Source: Paludibaculum fermentans
Lineage (GTDB): Bacteria; Acidobacteriota; Terriglobia; Bryobacterales; Bryobacteraceae
Direction: 5' to 3'
Assembly (NCBI RefSeq): GCF_015277775.1
Contig: NZ_CP063849.1
Coordinates: 1,922,001 to 1,986,000 of the forward strand
DNA length: 64,000 nucleotides
Both the position numbers and the translations under genes were made by a program. The notes below the pieces were generated by a model, which had not been told where the DNA came from, did not search any database, and saw only the letters and a list, made by a program, of their open reading frames with translations. Of this stretch, positions 17,181 to 47,234 are shown one piece after another. Every line of letters starts with the position of its first letter. The first letter of the stretch is position 1.

Positions 17181-18071
17181 CTAGCGCTTGGCCATTGTTT
17201 TCACTTTGGGCACCGCCAAGTAGCCGATCACCTGGTCCTTACGGATCTCGTTCACGACCACTTCATAGGGAGTCCGTGCGCCGGAGGTGTAGAACTGCAC
17301 CGGCTCGTTCACGTTCTTGTCCTTCTTCTCGACCGTCTTGTCGTCGGCCAGGACGTTCATGGTGAACTTGTTCCGCTTCACATCCGTCTTCTTCAGCGCC
17401 AGGCGGATCTCGCCGACCTTCTGGGGCTGACCGTTGCGGGGCAGGGTGAATTCGAAGTAGTCCTTCTCACCCAGCTTGCGCAGTTCGCCGAGCTCAGTGG
17501 AATTGGTTGCAATCAGGCCACTCATGACGCCCATGTCGCCCGTCATCCGCTTCAGGTCTTCCTTGGTCTGCGACAGGTCGGTCTTGGTGCTATCCACATC
17601 GGTGCGAACGGTGCCAACGTCACCCTTGATCCCGTTGAGGGCTTCGTCCACCTGGGTGGACTTCTGTTCGGTGGCCTGCTTGTAGTCTTCCAACTGCTTG
17701 GTCAACTCTTCGTTCTTGGCGGTGAGCGTGGTCATCACCCGGCCGGCCTGTTGCTTCGCGGCCCGCTGGGAGTTGGCCAGGGCTTCCTGCCGTGCCTTGG
17801 CGACTTCGTCGTTCATTTTGGCCAGGGTCTCGTCGACCTGCGCCTTGGCTACGGTGGCGCTGGTCTGCATCTGGCTCTGCAGCTGTTCGAACTTCTGCTG
17901 CGATTGGGCCATTTCCTGGCGTACCGAGGATACCTGATTGCTCTGGTACCACCAGCCTCCGAGGGCAGCCACCAGGGCCACGGCCACGGCCACCTTTGTC
18001 ACAGTCCCGCCGGAACTATGACGCTCCTCGTTCCGGATCACGGTCTCGTTGTTTTCGTTATAGCTCGACAT
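17181..18071 (-). CDS. Membrane-anchored coiled-coil protein, tandem copy 1
   Basis: The 296-residue product starts at the ATG at 18071, chosen because AGGAG lies about eight bases upstream and because the tandem copy has the same start. An acidic-polar N-terminus is followed by one membrane helix (VAVAVALVAALGGWWY, about residues 25-40). A long heptad-rich coiled coil (about 45-200) and a C-terminal beta-rich domain (about 205-290) with DYFEFTLPRNGQ and KKTDVKRNKFTMNVLADDK come next. The single N-terminal helix suggests anchoring with the coiled coil outside the cytoplasm. It is about 95 percent identical to copy 2. The function is unknown; a scaffold or envelope-spanning role is only inference. 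Confidence 0.82.
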   Translation of the reverse strand: MSSYNENNETVIRNEERHSSGGTVTKVAVAVALVAALGGWWYQSNQVSSVRQEMAQSQQKFEQLQSQMQTSATVAKAQVDETLAKMNDEVAKARQEALANSQRAAKQQAGRVMTTLTAKNEELTKQLEDYKQATEQKSTQVDEALNGIKGDVGTVRTDVDSTKTDLSQTKEDLKRMTGDMGVMSGLIATNSTELGELRKLGEKDYFEFTLPRNGQPQKVGEIRLALKKTDVKRNKFTMNVLADDKTVEKKDKNVNEPVQFYTSGARTPYEVVVNEIRKDQVIGYLAVPKVKTMAKR

Positions 18072-18488: not shown

Positions 18489-19379
18489 CTAGCGCTTGGC
18501 CATCGTTTTCACTTTGGGCACCGCCAAGTAGCCGATCACCTGGTCCTTACGGATCTCGTTCACGACCACTTCATAGGGAGTCCGTGCGCCGGAGGTATAG
18601 AACTGCACCGGCTCGTTCACGTTCTTGTCCTTCTTCTCGACCGTCTTGTCGTCGGCCAGGACGTTCATCGTGAACTTGTTCCGCTTCACATCGGTCTTCT
18701 TGAGAGCCAACCGGATCTCGCCGACCCTCTGGGCCTGGCCGTTGCGGGGCAGGGTGAACTCGAAGTAGTCCTTCTCACCCAGCTTGCGCAGTTCGGAGAG
18801 CTCCGTACCGTTCGTCGCAATTAGGCCGCTCATGACGCCCATGTCGCCCGTCATCCTCTTCAGGTCTTCCTTGGTCTGCGACAGGTCGGTCCGGGTGGTG
18901 TCCACGTCCGTGCGGACCGTGCCAACGTCACCCTTGATCCCGTTGAGGGCTTCATCCACCTGGGTGGACTTCTGTTCGGTGGCCTGCTTGTAGTCTTCCA
19001 ACTGCTTCGTCAGTTGTTCGTTCTTGGCGGTGAGTGTGGTCATCACCCTGCCGGCCTGCTGTTTGGCAGCCCGCTGGGAGTTGGCCAGCGCTTCCTGCCG
19101 CGCCTTGGCGACTTCGTCGTTCATTTTGGCCAGGGTCTCGTCGACCTGTGCCTTGGCGACGGTGGCGGTGGTCTGCATCTGGCTCTGCAGTTGTTCAAAC
19201 TTCTGCTGCGACTGGGCCATTTCCTGGCGTACCGAGGATACCTGACTGCTCTGGTACCACCAGCCTCCGAGGGCAGCCACCAGGGCCACGGCCACGGCCA
19301 CCTTGGTCACAGTTCCGCCGGAACTATGACGCTCCTCGTTCCGGATCACGGTCTCGTTCTTTTCGTTATAGTCCGACAT
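18489..19379 (-). CDS. Membrane-anchored coiled-coil protein, tandem copy 2
   Basis: The product is 296 residues, the same length as copy 1, starting at the ATG at 19379 with AGGAG about eight bases upstream. It has the same layout: polar head, one N-terminal membrane helix (VAVAVALVAALGGWWY), a long coiled coil rich in Gln, Lys, Glu and Thr, and a C-terminal beta-rich domain ending in KVKTMAKR. Differences from copy 1 are scattered and conservative (SDYNEKN for SSYNENN, TDLSQ after DTTR for DSTK). Both genes therefore appear to be maintained. It has its own leader hairpin and terminator, so the copies are independently expressed units. Confidence 0.82.
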   Translation of the reverse strand: MSDYNEKNETVIRNEERHSSGGTVTKVAVAVALVAALGGWWYQSSQVSSVRQEMAQSQQKFEQLQSQMQTTATVAKAQVDETLAKMNDEVAKARQEALANSQRAAKQQAGRVMTTLTAKNEQLTKQLEDYKQATEQKSTQVDEALNGIKGDVGTVRTDVDTTRTDLSQTKEDLKRMTGDMGVMSGLIATNGTELSELRKLGEKDYFEFTLPRNGQAQRVGEIRLALKKTDVKRNKFTMNVLADDKTVEKKDKNVNEPVQFYTSGARTPYEVVVNEIRKDQVIGYLAVPKVKTMAKR

Positions 19380-23325: not shown

Positions 23326-25518
23326 ATGCGTCTGCGTATCCGCATTACCGGAGCCGTCCAAGGCGTCGGCTTCCGCCCTCACGTCTATCGCCTGGCCGCT
23401 TCGGCGGGTCTGGGCGGCTTCGTTCAAAATTCCATCCAGGGCGTGCTGATCGAGGCCGAAGGTCCTCCGCGCGTGGCGCGCTGGCTGGAACAGAAGCTCA
23501 GGGAGACGCCGCCGGCGAACGCCGTCGTCCATTCGTTCATTAGCGAGGAGATTCCGGAACAAGGGATCACTGCCTTTCGAGTCGACGACAGCGACACCAA
23601 AGGAGAGCCCGCCGCGTTCCTGCTGCCAGACCTCGCGATCTGCCCGGCGTGCCTGGCCGACATCCGGGATCCGGGCAACCGCCGCTACCGCTATCCCTTC
23701 ACCACCTGTACGCATTGCGGACCGCGTTACTCGATCGTTGAAGGAATCCCCTACGACCGGCCCCTGACCTCGATGCGGCGCTTTCCGCTGTGCCCGCAGT
23801 GTGAGGACGAGTACAGGGACCCGCGCGACCGCCGCTTTCACGCCCAGACCAACTGCTGCCCGGCCTGCGGCCCGCAACTCTCGCTCTGGTCCGCAGACGG
23901 CACGGTGATGGCCAGCCGGCAGGAGGCTCTGTCTGGCGCGGTGCAGGCCCTGCGCGAGGGCCGCATCGTGGCGATCAAGGGCATCGGCGGCTTCCATCTC
24001 TGCTGCAACGCCCGCGACGCGGCCGCCATCCGCCTGCTGCGCGAACGCAAACACCGCCCCACGAAACCCTTCGCCGTGATGACCGCCGCCTGGCACGTTC
24101 GACCCGAAGCAGACCGGCTCCTCCGCTCGCCGCAGGCGCCCATTGTCCTGATCGAGCATCGCGGGCTGCTGCCGGACGAGATCGCTCCAGGCAACCCCTA
24201 CCTGGGCCTGATGAGCCCGTACTCGCCCCTGCACGCGCTGTTGCTGGACGAGTTCCAGGGTCCCATGGTCGCCACCAGCGGCAACCTCACGGACGAGCCC
24301 ATCTGCTTCGATGAAAGCGAAGCACTGCAGCGCCTGGCAGGTATCGCCGACGTCTTTCTCATACACGACCGCCCCATCGTCCGGCCCGTCGACGATTCCA
24401 TTGTGCGTTTCATCGATGGACAGGCCGTACTGCTGCGCCGTGCCCGCGGCTACGCGCCCCTGCCCTTCCCTGCGCCGTACCCGCTGCCGGATATGCTGGC
24501 CACCGGTGCGCACATGAAGAACACGGTTGCGTTCTCGCGCGGCAATCTGGTGTTCCTCAGCCAACACTTGGGCGACCTGGAGACGGTCGCTGCCCTGGAG
24601 AACCAAGCCCGCACGCTGGACGATCTGCGCCGCACTTACCAACTGGGCCCAAGAGTGGTGGCCTGCGACCTGCACCCCGACTACGGCTCCACCCACGCCG
24701 CGCAGGCGATGGGCCTGCCCGTCGAGCCCGTCCAGCATCACGAGGCGCATGTGCTTGCGGGGATCCTGGAACACCGCATCGAGGGTCCCGTGCTCGGCGT
24801 GGCCTGGGACGGCACGGGCTACGGCCACGACAAGACAATCTGGGGCGGCGAGTTCCTCGTCTTTCAGGCCAACCGTTTCACGCGCGCCGCGCACCTGCGG
24901 CCCTTCCGCCTGCCCGGCGGCGACCAGGCCGTCCGCGAGCCGCGCCGCTCCCTGCTGGGCGTCCTCCACCAGTTCGGCCGCGCGGGCCTGGCGCGCCCCT
25001 TGTTCCAGGCCAACCAGTTCGAAGTGCTGCAGCAGATGCTCGTCACCGGCTTGAACAGCCCCGTCAGCACCAGCGCCGGCCGGCTGTTCGATGCCGCGGC
25101 GGCGTTGCTGGGCCTCTGCCCTGTTTCCACCTTTGAGGGCGAGGCGGCGATGCTGCTCGAGTTCGCTGCCCGGCGGGCCGAGCCGTGCCCGTTGCCGCCC
25201 GCGTCCACAGACTGGCAGCCGCTGTTCGAGATCCTCGCCAACCCGGCCCACTCCGTGCCGGCGCGCGCCGCCTGCTTCCACCACGCGCTGGCCGGCCTCA
25301 TCCTGCAGCAGGCACAGCATCTCGGAATCGAGCAGGTGCTGCTCACCGGAGGCTGCTTCCAGAACGCCATCCTGACGGAACTCGCCGCCGCCCGCCTGCG
25401 CGAGGCAGGTTTCCGTGTCTTCACCCACCAGGCCATTCCCCCGAACGACGGCGCCATCGCCGCCGGCCAGATTCTTGCGGCTGCGTTGCGCCGCCAGGAG
25501 CCGTCCCCATGTGCCTAG
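23326..25518 (+). CDS. hypF: Hydrogenase maturation carbamoyltransferase HypF
   Basis: The product is 730 residues from the ATG at 23326; a TTG at 23290, touching the previous stop, is an alternative. HypF makes the carbamoyl donor for the CN ligands of the [NiFe] centre, passing it to HypE. Visible domains are an acylphosphatase domain (GAVQGVGFRPHVYRLA), two C-x2-C...C-x2-C zinc fingers (CPACLADI...CTHCG; CPQCEDEY...CCPACG), a YrdC-like domain (GGFHLCCNARDAAAIRLLRERK region) and a Kae1-like C-terminal half with HHEAHVLAG and a GVAWDGTGYG motif. The length matches the family. It overlaps hypC by 10 bases and heads the overlapping maturation operon. Confidence 0.96.
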   Translation: MRLRIRITGAVQGVGFRPHVYRLAASAGLGGFVQNSIQGVLIEAEGPPRVARWLEQKLRETPPANAVVHSFISEEIPEQGITAFRVDDSDTKGEPAAFLLPDLAICPACLADIRDPGNRRYRYPFTTCTHCGPRYSIVEGIPYDRPLTSMRRFPLCPQCEDEYRDPRDRRFHAQTNCCPACGPQLSLWSADGTVMASRQEALSGAVQALREGRIVAIKGIGGFHLCCNARDAAAIRLLRERKHRPTKPFAVMTAAWHVRPEADRLLRSPQAPIVLIEHRGLLPDEIAPGNPYLGLMSPYSPLHALLLDEFQGPMVATSGNLTDEPICFDESEALQRLAGIADVFLIHDRPIVRPVDDSIVRFIDGQAVLLRRARGYAPLPFPAPYPLPDMLATGAHMKNTVAFSRGNLVFLSQHLGDLETVAALENQARTLDDLRRTYQLGPRVVACDLHPDYGSTHAAQAMGLPVEPVQHHEAHVLAGILEHRIEGPVLGVAWDGTGYGHDKTIWGGEFLVFQANRFTRAAHLRPFRLPGGDQAVREPRRSLLGVLHQFGRAGLARPLFQANQFEVLQQMLVTGLNSPVSTSAGRLFDAAAALLGLCPVSTFEGEAAMLLEFAARRAEPCPLPPASTDWQPLFEILANPAHSVPARAACFHHALAGLILQQAQHLGIEQVLLTGGCFQNAILTELAAARLREAGFRVFTHQAIPPNDGAIAAGQILAAALRRQEPSPCA

Positions 25519-25775
25519 CCATACCCGGCCAGATCCTCAACCTGCAGGGCGATGACGAGATCACCCGCATGGCCCGCGTGTCCTTCGACGGCATCGTCAA
25601 GGAGATCTCCCTCGCCTATGTCCCAGAGGCCCGCACAGGCGACTATGTGCTGGTCCATGCCGGCTTCGCCATTCAGACCATTGACGAGGCCGAGGCCGAG
25701 CGCACCTTGAAGATCCTGCGCGAGATGGGCGAACTGGACGAGGAAACCGGAGGTCCGGGCGCCACCGATGCATGA
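25509..25775 (+). CDS. hypC: Hydrogenase maturation chaperone HypC
   Basis: This 88-residue protein begins MCLAIPGQIL, the diagnostic HypC start in which Cys2 binds the Fe(CN)2CO unit together with HypD. The ATG at 25509 was chosen over an upstream in-frame start because the family Met-Cys motif must be N-terminal. A central GIVKEISLAYVPEARTGDYVLVHAGFAI region matches the family (residues about 29-57). It overlaps hypF by 10 bases and hypA by 8 bases. HypD, its normal partner, is not encoded in this window. Confidence 0.95.
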   Translation: MCLAIPGQILNLQGDDEITRMARVSFDGIVKEISLAYVPEARTGDYVLVHAGFAIQTIDEAEAERTLKILREMGELDEETGGPGATDA

Positions 25776-26103
25776 GCTCTCCATCACGGAGTCGATCCTC
25801 GAGATCGCGCTGCGCCATGCCGCCGGCCGCCGCGTCGTGTCGGTTCACCTGGTGATCGGCGAACTGTCCTCCTATGTCGACGAGTCGATCCAACTCTTCT
25901 GGCAGGAGCTGACGCGCGGCACGCTGGCGGAAGAGGCGGTGCTCCAATTCGCCCGCGAACCCGGCGAGCTGCTCTGCCTCGATTGCGGCAAACAGTTCCC
26001 AGTCCGCACCCGCGACTTCATCTGCCCTCACTGCCAGTCCGCCAGCGCGCTGCCGGCCACGGGCCAAGACTGCTACGTTGATTCCATCGAGGTATTCGAA
26101 TGA
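25768..26103 (+). CDS. hypA: Hydrogenase/urease nickel insertion protein HypA
   Basis: This 111-residue protein starts MHELSITESIL. The N-terminal Met-His-Glu is the nickel-binding motif of HypA. A zinc site is formed by CLDCG and CPHC about 22 residues later, the usual structural site. HypA delivers nickel with HypB to the hydrogenase large subunit. It overlaps hypC by 8 bases and hypB by 4, consistent with translational coupling. Confidence 0.95.
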   Translation: MHELSITESILEIALRHAAGRRVVSVHLVIGELSSYVDESIQLFWQELTRGTLAEEAVLQFAREPGELLCLDCGKQFPVRTRDFICPHCQSASALPATGQDCYVDSIEVFE

Positions 26104-26756
26104 ACCCCGTCCGCATTCCCGTTGTCGAGAAGGTCCTCTCCGCCAACGACTCCGTGGCCGCCGCCACCCGGGCTCAGCTCGACGCCCTGGGCATCTTCTC
26201 GTTGAACCTGATGGCGTCGCCCGGCGCCGGCAAGACGTCACTGGTCGAGCGCACCGCCGCCGCCCTCAAAGGCTCCCATCCCGTGGGGATGGTGAACGGT
26301 GACACGTCGGAGGCCGCCTTCGACGCTGAGCGCAGCCAGCGCGCCGGAGCGCTCTCCGTCCACATCAACACCGGAGGCAAGTGCCACCTCGAGGCGGCCA
26401 TGGTGCGCGATGCCCTGGCCCTGCTGCCGCTGGATCAGATCCGGCTGCTGATCATTGAGAACGTCGGCAACCTGGTGTGCCCCTCGGCCTGGCAGTTGGG
26501 CGCCCAGCGCAGCGTGCTGATCGCGTCGATTCCAGAAGGCGATGACAAGCCTTACAAGTACCCCAAGATGTACTCGGGCGTGGACGTGCTGGTGATCAAC
26601 AAGATCGACCTGCTGCCCTATGTCGACTTCCGCATGGACTACTTCCGCCGCGGCGTGGAGACGCTGAATCCGGGCCTCGTCACCTTCGCGGTCTCCTGCC
26701 GCACCGGCGAAGGGCTGGATGCCTGGTTCGACTGGCTGCGGAGCCGCATGGCGTGA
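26100..26756 (+). CDS. hypB: Hydrogenase nickel incorporation GTPase HypB
   Basis: This 218-residue GTPase has a P-loop SPGAGKTSL, a metal-linked region GDTSEAAFDAERSQRAG, GGKCHLEA (conserved Cys-His at the metal site of the G domain), and NKIDLLP for guanine recognition. The long His-rich or CxxCGC N-terminal extension of some HypB proteins is absent, so nickel storage is unlikely and only the G-domain metal site remains. It hydrolyses GTP to drive nickel transfer from HypA. It overlaps hypA and the downstream protease gene by four bases each. Confidence 0.95.
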   Translation: MNPVRIPVVEKVLSANDSVAAATRAQLDALGIFSLNLMASPGAGKTSLVERTAAALKGSHPVGMVNGDTSEAAFDAERSQRAGALSVHINTGGKCHLEAAMVRDALALLPLDQIRLLIIENVGNLVCPSAWQLGAQRSVLIASIPEGDDKPYKYPKMYSGVDVLVINKIDLLPYVDFRMDYFRRGVETLNPGLVTFAVSCRTGEGLDAWFDWLRSRMA

Positions 26757-27283
26757 GCACGCTGATCGCAGGCCTGGGCAACGTCCTGATGGGCGACGAC
26801 GCCATTGGCCCGACGCTCATCTATTACCTCCAGGCTCGCTACGACTTCCCGCCGGACGTGGAGTTGAAGGACCTCGGGACGCCCGGGATCGACCTCGCGC
26901 AGCATCTGGCTGGGCGCGGTACCGTGATCCTATTGGACGCCATGGTCGATGCGCAGAGCACGCCCGGCTCCACGCGAACGGTCACGCTCGATGACCTGCA
27001 CTCGAACGCGAGGCCGCTGCCCGGCGACGTGCATTCGCCGGATCTTCGCGAATCCCTCAAGCTGGCGGCACTGCTCGGGGAACCGCCCCAGCGCGTGGTG
27101 CTCCTCGGTATCGTGGTGAGCTCCTGTGAACTGGGCAACCCGATGTCTCCCCAGATTCGTGACCGGATGGAGGCGATCCTCGGAGAAGTCACGGCCGAAC
27201 TGGCAAAGCGGCAAGTCCCATTCACGGCCCGCCCCAACGCCGTCGATCCGGATCTGTGGTGGCAGCACCGACCCGCCTGCTGA
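26753..27283 (+). CDS. [NiFe]-hydrogenase maturation endopeptidase (HyaD/HybD type)
   Basis: The product is 176 residues with a GTG start overlapping the hypB stop. Family features are GLGNVLMGDDAIGP (metal-binding acidic residue), ILLDAMVD (second metal ligand) and VHSPDL (His ligand region). Such proteases remove the C-terminal tail of the large subunit after nickel insertion and are specific to one hydrogenase. The presence of this protease implies that a cognate [NiFe] hydrogenase is encoded elsewhere in the genome. It ends the overlapping maturation cluster. Confidence 0.92.
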   Translation: MSTLIAGLGNVLMGDDAIGPTLIYYLQARYDFPPDVELKDLGTPGIDLAQHLAGRGTVILLDAMVDAQSTPGSTRTVTLDDLHSNARPLPGDVHSPDLRESLKLAALLGEPPQRVVLLGIVVSSCELGNPMSPQIRDRMEAILGEVTAELAKRQVPFTARPNAVDPDLWWQHRPAC

Positions 27284-27431: not shown

Positions 27432-27989
27432 GTGCCATCAACCATTCAAACCAAGGGCGGGTTCGAAGTCTCCTGCCCCGACGGCTCAGACCGTCTGGTC
27501 GTCAAGAAAGGCGGCCTCGTTCAGCTCGAAATCGATCTGGGAGTGCAGGGCATGAAAATCCAATCAACGGGCGACCTAGTCATCCAGGCGGGCGGCAGCC
27601 TTTCCCTCAAATCCGGAGGCAGCATGTCTGTGACCTGCGGATCCAACCTGGTCGCCGCCGTGGGCTCCGCCCTGGACCTCACCATCGGAGGCCAGGGTAC
27701 GGTCAACGCCCGATCGAACATGACGTTTACGGTCGGCAGCGCCATGAGCATCACGGCGGGCACCGCGCTGCAGTTGACCGCAGGCAATCAGTTCAGCCTG
27801 CTGGGCGGCCACACCGTCAACATCAAGAGCGGCAACGAGGTGGCGATCGAGACCAAGAAATTGACGGAAAAGGTGGCCACCGATACGGTGATCGATACGA
27901 AGGACTTCGTTCTCAAAGGCGATGGCAAGATCTCGATCAAAGCCGGAGGCGACCTGGTCCTGAAGGGCAGCAAGATCGCGCAGAACTGA
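27432..27989 (+). CDS. VgrG/phage spike-like beta-repeat protein
   Basis: The 185-residue product has a GTG start. It is almost entirely made of repeating strand-and-Gly units with Thr, Ser, Val and Ile alternating (DLVIQAGGSLSLKSGG; SLDLTIGGQGTV-like; SMSITAGTALQLTAGN; GKISIKAGGDLVLKG). This pattern is typical of the trimeric beta-helical spike of VgrG C-termini and phage gp5 C-termini (DUF2345-like). No gp27/gp5 N-terminal base, OB-fold or effector domain is present. Neighbours are a hydrogenase protease and a GlcG-like protein, with no sheath, tube or baseplate genes, so it stands alone here. The role is inferred only from the repeat pattern. Confidence 0.65.
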   Translation: MPSTIQTKGGFEVSCPDGSDRLVVKKGGLVQLEIDLGVQGMKIQSTGDLVIQAGGSLSLKSGGSMSVTCGSNLVAAVGSALDLTIGGQGTVNARSNMTFTVGSAMSITAGTALQLTAGNQFSLLGGHTVNIKSGNEVAIETKKLTEKVATDTVIDTKDFVLKGDGKISIKAGGDLVLKGSKIAQN

Positions 27990-28031: not shown

Positions 28032-28493
28032 CTACTTCAGCAGGGCGTCGATGGCGGCCTGCCCGATGGCCTCATCCACGGCCGAGGGTCCGCCGCTGAT
28101 GGCGATGGAGCCGATCAATTGCCCGTCAACCTTGATCGGCAGTCCACCCTGATTGGGAAAGAAGAACGGAAACGCGAGAGCCTCGACATGCCCGGCCTTG
28201 ACGGTATCGGCCGCGTTCTTGGAGGGGCTCCCGTTGAGGGCGGCATGCCGCGCCTTCCGCTGCGCCCATTCCAGCGTACTGATGGAGGCCTTGTCGCCCT
28301 TCTGCAGGAACAGGATGTTGGCGCTGTCGTCCATGATGCAGATGGTGACGCTGACATTCGCCTTCTCGGCCTCGGCCTCGGCGACGGCCACCAGCTTTTT
28401 CACGGCGGCCAGATTCAGGTACTTTTTCGACGGAAGCTCCGCCCCGGAAGTGAGTGACATCGCCATCAAGCCTATCGCAACAAGTCGCAGCAT
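28032..28493 (-). CDS. Secreted GlcG/HbpS family protein
   Basis: This 153-residue protein has a short signal peptide (VAIGLMAMSLTSGA) and then the GlcG/HbpS (DUF336) fold: NLAAVKKLVAVAEAEAEKANV, then ICIMDDSANILFLQKGDKA, and a Gly-rich end with GGLPIKVDGQLIGSIAISGG. Family members bind haem or organic cofactors, and the same domain forms the C-terminus of PduO in propanediol microcompartments. A PduS/PduT-like pair lies 0.5 kb away but on the other strand. This protein is exported, so a direct link is unproven. Confidence 0.85.
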   Translation of the reverse strand: MLRLVAIGLMAMSLTSGAELPSKKYLNLAAVKKLVAVAEAEAEKANVSVTICIMDDSANILFLQKGDKASISTLEWAQRKARHAALNGSPSKNAADTVKAGHVEALAFPFFFPNQGGLPIKVDGQLIGSIAISGGPSAVDEAIGQAAIDALLK

Positions 28494-28706
28494 GCGGAAC
28501 AGCCTATCACAGGGAATGTGGATCTCAGTCCTGTAGCTCCAGATTTCCCAGAATCGGGCTGAGCCCTCGCCCCTACGACCGTCCCTTGCCGGCCCGGCCC
28601 ACCCTCTCGCGATCTACGACTCCTGTTGCGCGAGACGGCGCGAGCGGGCAGATAGACTTCCGAATTGTCCATTACGCTGAAGGTCAGGGCAGGCAGATCG
28701 AAATTA

Positions 28707-28955
28707 ATGACACCAGAACAGTTTCCCGAGTACCAATGCTGCTTTTGCGGGTTGATCATCGAGCCAGTCCCACCCGACACCGGATCGCTCATCTACACAA
28801 CGTGCGCCGGTCAGAAGCCGGAAATGCAGCACGATCAGGAGCTCTTCTGCCACACGCAGTGCTTGCGTGACCGGCTTCACCCGTCCGTCAAAATGTACGC
28901 AAGCGACCTGCTGGATCTGGCAATTAGACGCATGCAGAGGAAAGGTCGAGCATAA
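28707..28955 (+). CDS. Small Cys-rich protein, probably metal binding
   Basis: The product is 82 residues from the ATG at 28707; an upstream in-frame TTG would add 14 unlikely residues. It has QCCFCGLI near the start, an isolated Cys at TTCAG, and FCHTQCL, a pattern suggesting one zinc site of four cysteines or Cys/His. The C-terminal 25 residues are a charged helix. No named family is recognised. It lies just before the PduS/PduT-like pair on the same strand (84-base gap), but no overlap links them. Confidence 0.6.
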   Translation: MTPEQFPEYQCCFCGLIIEPVPPDTGSLIYTTCAGQKPEMQHDQELFCHTQCLRDRLHPSVKMYASDLLDLAIRRMQRKGRA

Positions 28956-29038
28956 GCCCATCGCCCATCCCTGGCCAGTGGGCGCACCTTCATAGCGGCC
29001 CAACCCCGCCCCCTGCGCTATAGTGTGAATTCCGGTCC

Positions 29039-30355
29039 ATGCTGAACCTCAGTCAGAACTTACGCGAGATGGGCGTCGTTGGCGCCGGCGGCGCCGGCTT
29101 CCCCACCGAAGTCAAAGCCAAGTCCCAGGTCGAGTACATCCTCGCCAACGGAGCCGAGTGCGAACCACTGCTCCATAAGGACTTCGAGCTCATGAAGCGC
29201 TACCCCGCCGAGATGGTCTCCGGCATGGCGCGCATGATCCAGGTCACCAGCGCCCGCGAAGGCCGCTTCTGCATCAAGGAAAAGAACAAAGAAGCCGTCG
29301 ACGCCATCACACCGCACGCCAAAGCGGCCGGCATCGAGATGACCTATCTCGGCGACTTCTACCCCTCCGGCGACGAATATGAGATCGTTTATGCCGCCAC
29401 CGGCCGCCTCATCCCCGCCGCCGGCATCCCGCTGAACGTCGGCTGCGTCGTCAACAACGTCGAGACGCTCTATAACGTCGAACTCGCGGCCAACGGCACC
29501 CCCGTCACAAAGAAGTTCGTCTCCATCAGCGGAGCCGTCAAACGCCCCTGCAGCTTCTGGGCCCCCATCGGCTGTACGTTCGCCGACCTTCTCGCCATCG
29601 CCGGCGGACCCACCGTCCCCGACATCGGCATCTTCGTCAGCGGCATGATGATGGGCACGCTCACCTTCGACCTCACCGGCATCGTCACCAAGACCACCTG
29701 CGGCCTCATCGTCCTGCCACGCGAACACTCGCTGGTCCAGCGCAAGAGCAAGCCCAAAGAGGTGATGGCCCACATCGGCAAATCGGCCTGTGACCAGTGC
29801 AGCTACTGCACCGAATTCTGCCCGCGCTATCTGCTCGGCTATGATGTGCAGCCGCACAAGGTGATGCGGACCCTCGGCTTCACGCTTTCCGGCAAAGAGA
29901 ACTGGAGCCAGTGGGGCGAGCTCTGCTGCTCCTGCGGCCTGTGCACGCTCTACGCCTGCCCCGAAGACCTCTTCCCCAAGGAAGCCTGCGACGACGCCAA
30001 AGTGACGCTGCGCACCGCCGGCATGAAGTACGTCCAGCAGCACCCCGTCCGGGCCCATCCGATGAAGGAGTACCGCCGCGTCCCGCAGTCGATGCTCCGC
30101 CAGCGCCTGAATGTCGAGGCCTACGAAAGCCACACGCCGTTCGTCGCCGACGAGCCCAAGCCCGCGCGGGTGCGCATCCTCACCAAGCAGCACGCCGGCA
30201 AGCCCGCGACGCCCGTCGTGGCGGAAGGCGACCGCATTGAAGCGGGCCGCCCCATTGCCCGCATGAACGACAACGAACTAGGCGCGGACGTCCACGCGAG
30301 CATCTCCGGCCGCGTGGCCCGAGTCACCGCCGAAGCCATCGAAATCGAAGCCTGA
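29039..30355 (+). CDS. PduS/RnfC-like electron-transfer protein of a bacterial microcompartment
   Basis: In this 438-residue protein (PduS proteins are close to 450), residues 14-21 read VGAGGAGFP, the flavin-site motif of the RnfC/NuoF-like fold. Two [4Fe-4S] motifs follow: C251-x2-C254-x2-C257-x3-C261-P and C296-x2-C299-x2-C302-x4-C307-P. The C-terminus (about 377-438) forms a barrel-sandwich hybrid domain. PduS proteins pass electrons, in known systems to cobalamin, and dock to the shell protein PduT. The next gene is a PduT-like shell protein 17 bases downstream, so the two form an operon. The physiological acceptor here is unknown. Confidence 0.85.
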   Translation: MLNLSQNLREMGVVGAGGAGFPTEVKAKSQVEYILANGAECEPLLHKDFELMKRYPAEMVSGMARMIQVTSAREGRFCIKEKNKEAVDAITPHAKAAGIEMTYLGDFYPSGDEYEIVYAATGRLIPAAGIPLNVGCVVNNVETLYNVELAANGTPVTKKFVSISGAVKRPCSFWAPIGCTFADLLAIAGGPTVPDIGIFVSGMMMGTLTFDLTGIVTKTTCGLIVLPREHSLVQRKSKPKEVMAHIGKSACDQCSYCTEFCPRYLLGYDVQPHKVMRTLGFTLSGKENWSQWGELCCSCGLCTLYACPEDLFPKEACDDAKVTLRTAGMKYVQQHPVRAHPMKEYRRVPQSMLRQRLNVEAYESHTPFVADEPKPARVRILTKQHAGKPATPVVAEGDRIEAGRPIARMNDNELGADVHASISGRVARVTAEAIEIEA

Positions 30356-30372
30356 GCCAAAGGAACAACCAA

Positions 30373-30924
30373 GTGGCCCGCAATTCCATCGGATTGATTG
30401 AACTCTCGAGCATCGCCGCCGGCTTCCTGGTGTGCGACTGCATGTTGAAGACGGCGGATGTCGAACTGGTTCTGGCGCGCACCATCTGCAGCGGCAAATA
30501 CATGGTCCTGATCCGCGGCGACGTCGGAGCCATCCAGGCCGCGGTCGACGCCGGCAAACAGGCAGGCGACTTCTCCATCATCGACACCTTCGTCATCGCC
30601 AACCTCCACGAAGACATCTTCCCGGCCATCAGCGGCACCACGAACGTAGGCCAACTCGAGTCCCTCGGCATCGTCGAATCCTTCTCGGTGACCAGCCTGA
30701 TCGAAGCCGCGGATGCCATGGCCAAAGCGGCCAACGTCCGTCTGGTGGAAGTGCGGCTGGCAATGGCACTGGGCGGCAAGGCCTTCGCGTCCTGCACCGG
30801 CAGCGTCTCGGCGGTAAGGACGGCGGTGGACGCGGGAGCCCAGGTCATTGGCCGCAAGGGACTGCTGGTGAATAAGGTTGTCATCCCGCAGCCCAGGCCG
30901 GAGCTACTGCGCGAGATGATCTGA
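30373..30924 (+). CDS. PduT-like double BMC-domain shell protein
   Basis: The product is 183 residues with a GTG start. Two BMC domains in tandem (about 5-80 and 95-175) give a trimeric pseudohexamer. Conserved features include IGLIELSSIA, TICSGKYMVLIRGDVGAIQAA with Cys39 at the pore position that binds a [4Fe-4S] cluster in PduT, and GIVE at the start of domain two. It would form a redox-active pore tile of a microcompartment shell, coupled to the PduS-like protein encoded 17 bases upstream. No BMC hexamer, pentamer or enzyme gene is present in this window. Confidence 0.9.
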   Translation: MARNSIGLIELSSIAAGFLVCDCMLKTADVELVLARTICSGKYMVLIRGDVGAIQAAVDAGKQAGDFSIIDTFVIANLHEDIFPAISGTTNVGQLESLGIVESFSVTSLIEAADAMAKAANVRLVEVRLAMALGGKAFASCTGSVSAVRTAVDAGAQVIGRKGLLVNKVVIPQPRPELLREMI

Positions 30925-46196: not shown

Positions 46197-47234
46197 CTAG
46201 GCCCGGCTGACGAAGCGGAAGAAGAGCGCCTGCTTGGAGACGGGCTCGGCGCGGTGCGCGATGGCGGCCATCTGCTTGTCGCTCAGAGGGGTGAAGGCGC
46301 GGGCAATCTGCACATTCTCCTCGAGCTGGGCGATGGAGTCGCAGCCCACAATGACAGTGGTGACAGGCAAGGTGAGCGAGTAAGACATGGCCTCGCGCAT
46401 CGTGAGCGGGCCGGGTGTCGTGGCGATGACGGCGCCTTCCCAGGAGCGCTGCTGCCGTTCCAGCGGCGGCGGCGTCCAACTGGAGAGCAGTCGTCCACGG
46501 CCGGGCACTTTCATGCCGATGATGCCCATCTGCTTTTCGACGGCGAGCGGCAGGAGTTCGTCGAGAAAGCTGTAGTGGTATTTGTCGGCGGCGTTTAGCG
46601 AAATGAGGATCGTGTCGAAGGGGAAGCGCCGGATGGACTCCACGAGCGCTTCGGGCCGGAAGTGGCCGGTGACTCCGAGATAGCGGACCAACTTCTGCTC
46701 GCGCGCCTGGAGCAAGGCTTCCATGGCTCCGCCCTTGGCGAAGACGGCTTCCACGTCTTCCGGCAGGCCGATATCGTGGAGCTGCCAGAGGTCGAGGTGA
46801 TCGGTGTTGAGGAGCTTGAGCGACTCCTCGAGCATGCGGAGGGAGCCGTCGCGCGTGCGCTCCTTGGTCTTGCTGGCGAGGAAGGCTTCGTTGCGGCGGC
46901 GTTTCATGACCTGGCCGACATAGCGCTCGCTCCAACGGTCTTTGCCGCCATAGATGGACGAGGTGTCGATGTAGTTGATGCCGAGGTCGAGGGCGCGATC
47001 GATGATGGGGACTGCGGTGGCGTCGTTGTTGGGGCGCTCGAGGGCAGCCTGTCCGCCCAGGCTGAAGAGGCCGGTTTTATAGCCGGTGCGGCCCAGGTTG
47101 CGCGTGGGCATGGCGGGCTGTGGCGGAGCCGGAGCGGCGGCGGCCACGCTGGTAGTAGTGCCAAGGAGGCCGGCGACGGTGGCCCCTCCAGCCTTCAGGA
47201 ATGTGCGGCGTTCGCGAGGGGTGACTTTTTTCAC
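46197..47234 (-). CDS. Tat-exported aldo/keto reductase
   Basis: The product is 345 residues from the GTG at 47234, chosen because AGGAG lies seven bases upstream and because it yields a Tat signal RRTFLKAGGATVAG. The mature domain is an AKR barrel with DTSSIYGG (Tyr), ASKTKER (Lys), LDLWQLHD (His) and NRTLG-like N-terminal strands, so the catalytic Asp-Tyr-Lys-His set is present. Tat export implies it folds with cofactor before translocation. Substrate is unknown; neighbours are sugar-degrading genes, so a carbonyl sugar derivative is a guess. Confidence 0.88.
   Translation of the reverse strand: MKKVTPRERRTFLKAGGATVAGLLGTTTSVAAAAPAPPQPAMPTRNLGRTGYKTGLFSLGGQAALERPNNDATAVPIIDRALDLGINYIDTSSIYGGKDRWSERYVGQVMKRRRNEAFLASKTKERTRDGSLRMLEESLKLLNTDHLDLWQLHDIGLPEDVEAVFAKGGAMEALLQAREQKLVRYLGVTGHFRPEALVESIRRFPFDTILISLNAADKYHYSFLDELLPLAVEKQMGIIGMKVPGRGRLLSSWTPPPLERQQRSWEGAVIATTPGPLTMREAMSYSLTLPVTTVIVGCDSIAQLEENVQIARAFTPLSDKQMAAIAHRAEPVSKQALFFRFVSRA

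Follow-up and report, generated by a model that had tools for sequence, protein, structure and literature searches.

In the wetland bacterium Paludibaculum fermentans, a pduS-type and a pduT-type gene lie side by side within a 64-kb stretch of DNA (C1:1922001-1986000, the whole of which is called the window below), apart from any other gene of a bacterial microcompartment (BMC). We consider it likely that the two genes form a satellite operon belonging to a dispersed metabolosome, for which they would serve as electron exit. A preliminary description of the window had taken the pair for an orphan module without a microcompartment, which is accurate for the window and not for the genome, as BMC genes occur at four other places. 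Because further shell and cargo genes are encoded elsewhere on the chromosome, we read the pair as a satellite, a detached part rather than an orphan, and the compartment that it serves is most likely encoded elsewhere in the genome.

Gene anatomy of the PduS-PduT pair

The pair and its immediate signals are arranged as follows:

29019-29024, plus strand: -10-like element TATAGT, 14 nt ahead of the pduS start codon
29039-30355, plus strand: pduS-type gene (438 amino acids, aa), with an FMN/NADH domain, SLBB, two [4Fe-4S] motifs, and a C-terminal RnfC-type barrel-sandwich domain
30356-30372, plus strand: intergenic gap of 17 bp, with a Shine-Dalgarno-like AAAGGA at 30359-30364 ahead of the pduT GTG start
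30373-30924, plus strand: pduT-type gene (183 aa), with PF00936 twice, Cys39 at the pore position, and a GTG start

The Pfam matches of PduS (Complex1_51K at residues 9-147, SLBB at 161-194, Fer4_17 at 250-311, and RnfC_N at 366-432) give a series of 51K-FMN, SLBB, Fer4_17, and RnfC_N, which is the order of the PduS domain list in PMC6325248 (a source represented here by excerpts, as is PMC2982820). Its two Fe-S motifs, C251xxC254xxC257xxxC261 (CxxCxxCxxxC) and C296xxC299xxC302xxxxC307 (CxxCxxCxxxxC), have the same spacing as those of Citrobacter PduS (C264..C274 and C309..C320; PMC2982820), with an offset that stays constant at 13. The cluster cysteines show no variation in 56 of 56 aligned sequences (query counted), in an alignment that, like the others used here, was cleared of identical sequences yet contains some genomes repeatedly under different locus identifiers. 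A sequence search returned RnfC chains as the nearest PDB relatives of PduS. The protein nevertheless scores 211.6 bits against the RnfC model TIGR01945, short of the cut-off of 245.95, and carries RnfC_N at 366-432 instead of at the N-terminus, where it would be expected in RnfC. PduS is single-copy in the genome, the sole other match being weak (32% over 100 residues). By analogy, it is predicted to bind FMN and two [4Fe-4S] clusters, to oxidize NADH, and to bind PduT.

The second gene product combines tandem BMC domains with a cysteine at the pore position, which places it with PduT. In an alignment with PDB chain 3PAC, Cys39 falls on the Cys of its TICPGK motif, and the closest solved structures found by sequence are the PduT-type shell proteins 3NWG, 3N79, and 3PAC. 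The preliminary description of a PduS-like protein with two Fe-S motifs, followed 17 bp later by a PduT-like double BMC protein with the pore Cys, is therefore borne out by domains, motif spacing, and the alignment with 3PAC. In PduT the pore Cys is residue 38. In the present protein, Cys39 is unchanged in all 59 aligned sequences (query counted), whereas Cys21, Cys23, and Cys141 vary. The conserved pore Cys of PduT is described as a cluster ligand (PMC6325248).

Comparison with four relatives yielded nonsynonymous divergence (dN) of 0.009-0.17 against synonymous divergence (dS) of 0.25-0.69 for pduS; for both genes, dN is 0.009-0.17 and dS 0.25-1.06, with dN/dS of about 0.02-0.25. With dN far below dS and the cluster cysteines invariant, we conclude that the pair is in use.

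The TATAGT element is a probable promoter of pduS's own, with a very short leader. Within 60 nt upstream of the gene, GCTANNNT occurs in 19 of 38 distinct pduS upstream regions; among other genes in these loci the figure is 24 of 304. This set derives from 47 of 50 loci (L061, L065, and L078 were not found) and was reduced to the 38 with distinct last 60 nt; in several loci with GTG starts the start codon was misplaced by the script, so that element positions vary. An operator shared between pduS and BMC-H genes was considered and rejected, GCTANNNT being present in 2 of 27 BMC-H upstream regions (80 nt; 30 loci, L158-L187).

Compartment genes elsewhere in the genome and in relatives

P. fermentans P105T belongs to the Bryobacterales and is a facultative anaerobe in which Fe(III) reduction is coupled to sugar fermentation; its circular chromosome measures 9,476,802 bp within a total of 9.53 Mb (PMC8407742), and the assembly analyzed here comprises 9,532,094 bases in two contigs. 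All 43 called genes of the window were Pfam-scanned, and none encodes an aldehyde dehydrogenase, class II aldolase, phosphotransacylase, acetate kinase, or iron-type alcohol dehydrogenase, while whole-genome searches place no PF00936 or PF03319 domain in the window beyond PduT. Genome-wide, there are nine PF00936 domains at five places, two of them in the window PduT, and three matches to PF03319 (BMC-P), all in one place. The four places outside the window hold three BMC-P, three BMC-H, two BMC-T, two shell-adjacent aldehyde dehydrogenases, and two class II aldolases, distributed as follows (approximate distances on the circular chromosome):

Locus A, about 1.32 Mb (about 0.63 Mb away): DeoR-type regulator, class II aldolase of 359 aa, aldehyde dehydrogenase of 482 aa, BMC-H, and tandem BMC-T
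Locus B, about 4.36 Mb (2.4 Mb away): class II aldolase of 264 aa, BMC-H, and three BMC-P
Locus C, about 8.37 Mb (3.1 Mb away): BMC-H and aldehyde dehydrogenase of 623 aa
Locus D, about 7.64 Mb (3.8 Mb away): BMC-T adjoining a DHDPS-family gene

The preliminary description had seen no hexamer, pentamer, or core enzyme nearby, which agrees with the window scan, and had suggested a satellite of a distant BMC, to be checked by a genome search for BMC-H and BMC-P genes. That search returned three of each, and gene calls and family scans at the same places gave the aldehyde dehydrogenases and class II aldolases, in support of the suggestion. BMC genes immediately outside the region, which would have made the module ordinary, are not found; the nearest are about 0.63 Mb away.

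A genome-wide search for PduL gave zero matches. The 19 genes scanned at the flanks of loci A-D include no phosphotransacylase, acetate kinase, or iron-type alcohol dehydrogenase, no genome-wide search having been aimed at alcohol dehydrogenase or at other phosphotransacylases. One of the two shell-adjacent aldehyde dehydrogenases is of the PRK15398 type, over the cut-off, and a class II aldolase shows by eye a C-terminal extension of helix-like sequence, which may be an encapsulation peptide. The locus C aldehyde dehydrogenase (L014:9899-11770) continues for about 165 residues past the dehydrogenase match, and its C-terminus looks by eye like the N-terminus of the locus A aldolase. At locus D (L015:7989-9789), the BMC-T, whose first BMC domain scores 42.1 bits and whose second scores 89.4, stands between the DHDPS-family gene and a radical SAM gene; its true start probably lies upstream of the called one (9750).

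We searched 200 genomes of the order, evenly drawn from a larger group, for PduT, BMC-P, PduS, PduL, and the aldehyde dehydrogenases of loci A and C, scoring PduS as present at E <= 1e-60. PduS was found in 77 genomes, and 74 of the 77 have a PduT-type match. By type, 74 carry the satellite PduS and three (G038, G065, and G109) a main-locus PduS that is 44-45% identical. BMC-P is present in 68 of 74 satellite genomes versus 57 of the 126 others (Fisher 6e-12), and the locus C aldehyde dehydrogenase in 71 of 74 versus 53 of 126 (Fisher 3e-16); both tests ignore shared descent, which inflates the significance. For the dehydrogenase, G038 and G109 (AdhE-like, 41% identical) were entered as absent and G127 (a 62% identical fragment) as present. 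BMC-P, the locus C dehydrogenase, or both occur in 72 of 74 satellite genomes. The two with neither marker are drafts, 81 and 84% complete, one of which (G191) holds a further partial BMC domain. Among the six satellite genomes without BMC-P, five have a BMC domain besides PduT (partial only in G191), and the sixth, G001, is 81% complete.

Two narrower partnerships did not hold. PduL is found in 10 of 200 genomes, all PduS-positive, yet 67 of 74 satellite genomes are without it. The locus A aldehyde dehydrogenase occurs in 22 of 74 satellite genomes (still above chance, 5e-7). The low co-occurrence with PduL and with the locus A enzyme indicates that the satellite tracks the system of loci B and C more closely than locus A.

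Detachment of the pair recurs in relatives. From the 77 genomes we chose 20 by hand and compared one stretch surrounding PduS in each (19 of 19.9 kb and one of 12.8 kb). Other BMC genes are absent from the stretch in 17 of 17 satellite relatives, whose neighbouring genes differ, with none widely recurrent. In the three main-locus relatives, the pair lies near acetate kinase, PduL, BMC-T, BMC-H, BMC-P, aldehyde dehydrogenase, and class II aldolase. When genome contigs were scanned with PduS, 26 loci emerged, some from the same genomes, and blastp with the proteins of this genome detected another BMC gene in the stretches of none of the 26. PduT follows PduS in 24 of them, PduS being cut by the contig end in L125 and L128. 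In the measured loci, the pduS-pduT gap ranges from -10 to +38 bp, save in L120, L122-L124, L126, L127, and L129 (22 to 590 bp). Six loci from records labelled Ignavibacteriae, Melioribacter, or Bacteroidetes also have the detached pair (57-59% identity). In L120, labelled Bacteroidetes (63%), PduT lies about 590 bp off and PduS groups with Acidobacteriota in the tree; this record is probably mislabelled or a mixed assembly. The genomes behind these six loci and L120 have BMC-P in seven of seven cases, each on a contig unlike the PduS contig in size.

In a midpoint-rooted tree of 56 sequences, satellite and main-locus PduS form separate groups with 100/100 support, so that the satellite is not a recent break-off from a G038-type locus.

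Locus A (L012:7158-10592) corresponds to the G038-type locus minus PduS-PduT, acetate kinase, PduL, and BMC-P, and across the family a complete metabolosome locus is reduced by degrees, from the full set to the dehydrogenase alone. These calls rest on blastp with the proteins of this genome, which distant genes may escape (loci L012, L077, L078, L079, and L198-L205). Among the intermediate states, PduL is present and BMC-P undetected in G190, G121, G197, and G093 (in G093 on a contig of 4.7 kb), only dehydrogenase and aldolase are found in G039 and G049, and the dehydrogenase alone is found in G119, G066, and G178 (in the latter two, the stretch stops at a contig end). G016 has acetate kinase, PduL, BMC-T, BMC-H, a BMC-P, and aldolase, with the dehydrogenase undetected; in G137 and G169 short contigs truncate the locus. 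Should locus A be active, its cargo would need the pentamers of locus B.

Proposed electron exit and competing explanations

The likeliest role of the pair would be that of an electron exit from the shell in a genome without PduL. PduT would be a trimeric tile making up a small part of the shell, its pore holding a [4Fe-4S] cluster, and PduS would dock on the luminal face of this tile. NADH made in the lumen by the shell-adjacent aldehyde dehydrogenases would yield its electrons to PduS, which would pass them by way of FMN and two clusters through PduT to a cytosolic acceptor, thereby regenerating NAD+ inside the shell. The substrate is probably an aldehyde from a class II aldolase of the fuculose/rhamnulose-phosphate type, as judged from family resemblance. 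Given the absence of PduL from the genome and of an iron-type alcohol dehydrogenase from the scanned genes of the BMC loci, an electron exit is a reasonable means of NAD+ regeneration. Export via PduT was proposed in Citrobacter, whose PduS, a flavoprotein dependent on NADH, has two [4Fe-4S] centres and binds PduT; the midpoints of PduS with its clusters (-150 mV) and of PduT (+99 mV) run downhill towards the shell (PMC2982820).

Several observations weigh against this interpretation. At 127.7 bits, PduT falls under the TIGR02526 cut-off of 250.3, and we accordingly call it PduT-type rather than a TIGR02526 equivalog. An aldo/keto reductase near locus B and a short-chain dehydrogenase near locus C, each a few kb off, could reduce aldehydes. 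The satellite is missing from 57 of 125 genomes with BMC-P (three of the 57 have the main-locus type), and in family f3 none of the 18 listed genomes has it although 16 have BMC-P, so that a BMC of this kind can do without it and the satellite must be regarded as optional. G124 (99% complete; L080) combines the pair with BMC-H and a BMC-linked aldehyde dehydrogenase in the face of no BMC-P match, reflecting either a shell without pentamers or an assembly gap. The PduL-type BMC loci of G016 and of the contig-cut G137 have no PduS beside them. A common regulon is not demonstrated, since the promoter-like element of pduS is not common to the locus C BMC-H gene (2 of 27). Finally, everything past the gene anatomy, that is, expression, assembly, electron transfer, and flow direction, is what we infer from it.

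Electrons might instead flow inward, with the pair supplying the lumen for purposes such as lactaldehyde reduction or enzyme activation. Luminal uses of PduS and PduT are discussed for GRM compartments in the excerpts of PMC6325248, and the radical SAM gene adjoining the locus D BMC-T leaves room for an activation role. We nonetheless regard inward flow as unlikely: no glycyl radical enzyme is present among the scanned genes of the window and loci A-D, and the published midpoints (PduS -150 mV, PduT +99 mV) favour flow towards PduT. It seems quite unlikely that PduS, anchored by PduT, serves a B12-dependent enzyme as its corrin reductase in the manner of Pdu. Citrobacter PduS does reduce cobalamin and bind PduT (PMC2982820), but B12-dependent dehydratase and adenosyltransferase families are not among the Pfam-scanned genes of the window and loci A-D (no genome-wide B12 search was made), and GRM loci, which have B12-independent signature enzymes, commonly include PduS (PMC6325248).

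The preliminary description had also entertained a redox tile used outside any compartment. Such a tile would be stand-alone, either soluble or in a lattice. The pair is indeed isolated in the chromosome in each satellite stretch examined, and G001 has PduST and no other BMC match. This explanation is very unlikely, however, as 72 of 74 satellite genomes have BMC-P and/or a BMC-linked aldehyde dehydrogenase, and just two have the pair without either marker, both of them the drafts of 81 and 84% completeness, with a partial BMC domain in G191. That the pair is a decaying leftover of a lost BMC locus is highly improbable: locus A resembles a reduced form of the full locus of G038, G065, and G109, and relatives show graded loss, but dN/dS of about 0.02-0.25, the invariant cluster cysteines, and the distinctness of the satellite PduS group from the main-locus group (100/100), which shows that it is no remnant of that locus, all argue to the contrary.

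The proposed electron exit can be approached directly in P. fermentans: since the organism is in culture, its genome is complete and lacks PduL, and pduST stands alone, a deletion would remove the exit and leave shell and cargo genes untouched. The arrangement also suggests that locus-based surveys can overlook redox parts of a compartment. A broader proposal, which we regard as doubtful, is that PduS-PduT constitutes a separate, conserved two-gene "redox vent" of fragmented metabolosomes in Acidobacteriota (mostly PduL-less) and Ignavibacteriota. Switched independently of shell and cargo, it would add an electron exit to a compartment complete in other respects in the absence of oxygen, in P. 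fermentans towards Fe(III)-reducing pathways.

Window neighbours and comparison with known systems

One further gene had been counted with the module:

28032-28493, minus strand (opposite to pduS): GlcG-like gene (PF03928, HbpS-like), 545 bp from the pduS start

A GlcG-like protein about 0.5 kb from the pair, linked to it through PduO, was part of the preliminary description. The gene is present, and its membership in the module fails, as it adjoins the pair in one of 20 relatives (only the window and L082); this neighbour is incidental. The N-terminus of the protein resembles a signal peptide by eye. Likewise rejected was a 96-aa open reading frame (28665-28955) as part of the module, which has no Pfam match and, among the loci compared, is confined to the window. 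A link of the pair to the hydrogenase-maturation genes upstream was also discarded, there being no shared cluster near pduS in the loci of relatives. Those genes, at 23326-27283, encode HypF, HypC, HypA, a CobW/HypB-type protein, and an HycI-type protease, and no structural hydrogenase gene is among the 43 window genes scanned. At 27432-27989 lies a gene for a DUF2345-like protein (PF10106, barely over the cut-off), with a counterpart of 75% identity upstream of pduS in L082; the DUF2345 domain is frequent at VgrG spike ends. The window also contains one aldo/keto reductase (46197-47234, 16 kb from the pair) and two adjoining minus-strand genes of 296 aa each (17181-18071 and 18489-19379), nearly alike over their first 70 residues and both without a Pfam match.

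In the titles and abstract openings of the papers retrieved on PduS, PduT, and microcompartments of Acidobacteria, we found no description of a stand-alone PduS-PduT satellite, although supplementary tables of surveys may contain one. The Pdu compartment of Citrobacter and Salmonella has PduS and PduT with the same domain order, Fe-S spacing, pore Cys, and gene adjacency. In contrast to Pdu, the pair described here is alone in the chromosome, with no diol dehydratase or PduO beside it, and its PduT-type protein scores 127.7 against a cut-off of 250.3 bits. In GRM1, GRM3, and GRM5 (PMC6325248), PduS and PduT are likewise adjacent and without B12 chemistry, and GRM5 also has a class II aldolase; there the pair lies inside the BMC locus, whereas the genes scanned here include no glycyl radical enzyme.

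The remaining comparisons draw on excerpts of two surveys, PMC4207490 (Axen 2014) and PMC8217296 (Sutter 2021). The former notes that how loci lacking phosphotransacylase or alcohol dehydrogenase recycle their cofactors is not yet known. It also describes PVM-like split loci in a relative, Candidatus Solibacter usitatus, that have class II aldolase, BMC-P being present at one locus and lacking from another; the excerpt makes no mention of a PduS-PduT satellite in that organism. ACI of PMC8217296 shares the BMC-P triplet, class II aldolase, and BMC-H, with aldehyde dehydrogenase at a satellite. It is found mainly in subdivisions 4 and 6 and has a hydroxyacid dehydrogenase in its main locus; the five genes scanned at the flanks of locus B do not include this enzyme (PF00389/PF02826), and hence we do not file the system as ACI. 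FRAG shows the same scatter, with shell genes at up to six places, and Acidobacteria are unlisted for FRAG in the excerpt (PMC8217296).

Satellite BMC loci (PMC4207490 and PMC8217296) have the same incomplete shell set far from a locus with BMC-H and BMC-P. The pair agrees with the Sutter 2021 definition, by which a satellite is distal from the BMC-H/BMC-P main locus and holds shell genes with or without enzymes. It departs from that of Axen 2014, by which no other BMC-related gene lies by the shell gene, in that PduS adjoins; PduS being itself BMC-related, the pair is satellite-like by that wording. What sets it apart from known satellite loci is its content, an electron-transfer pair.

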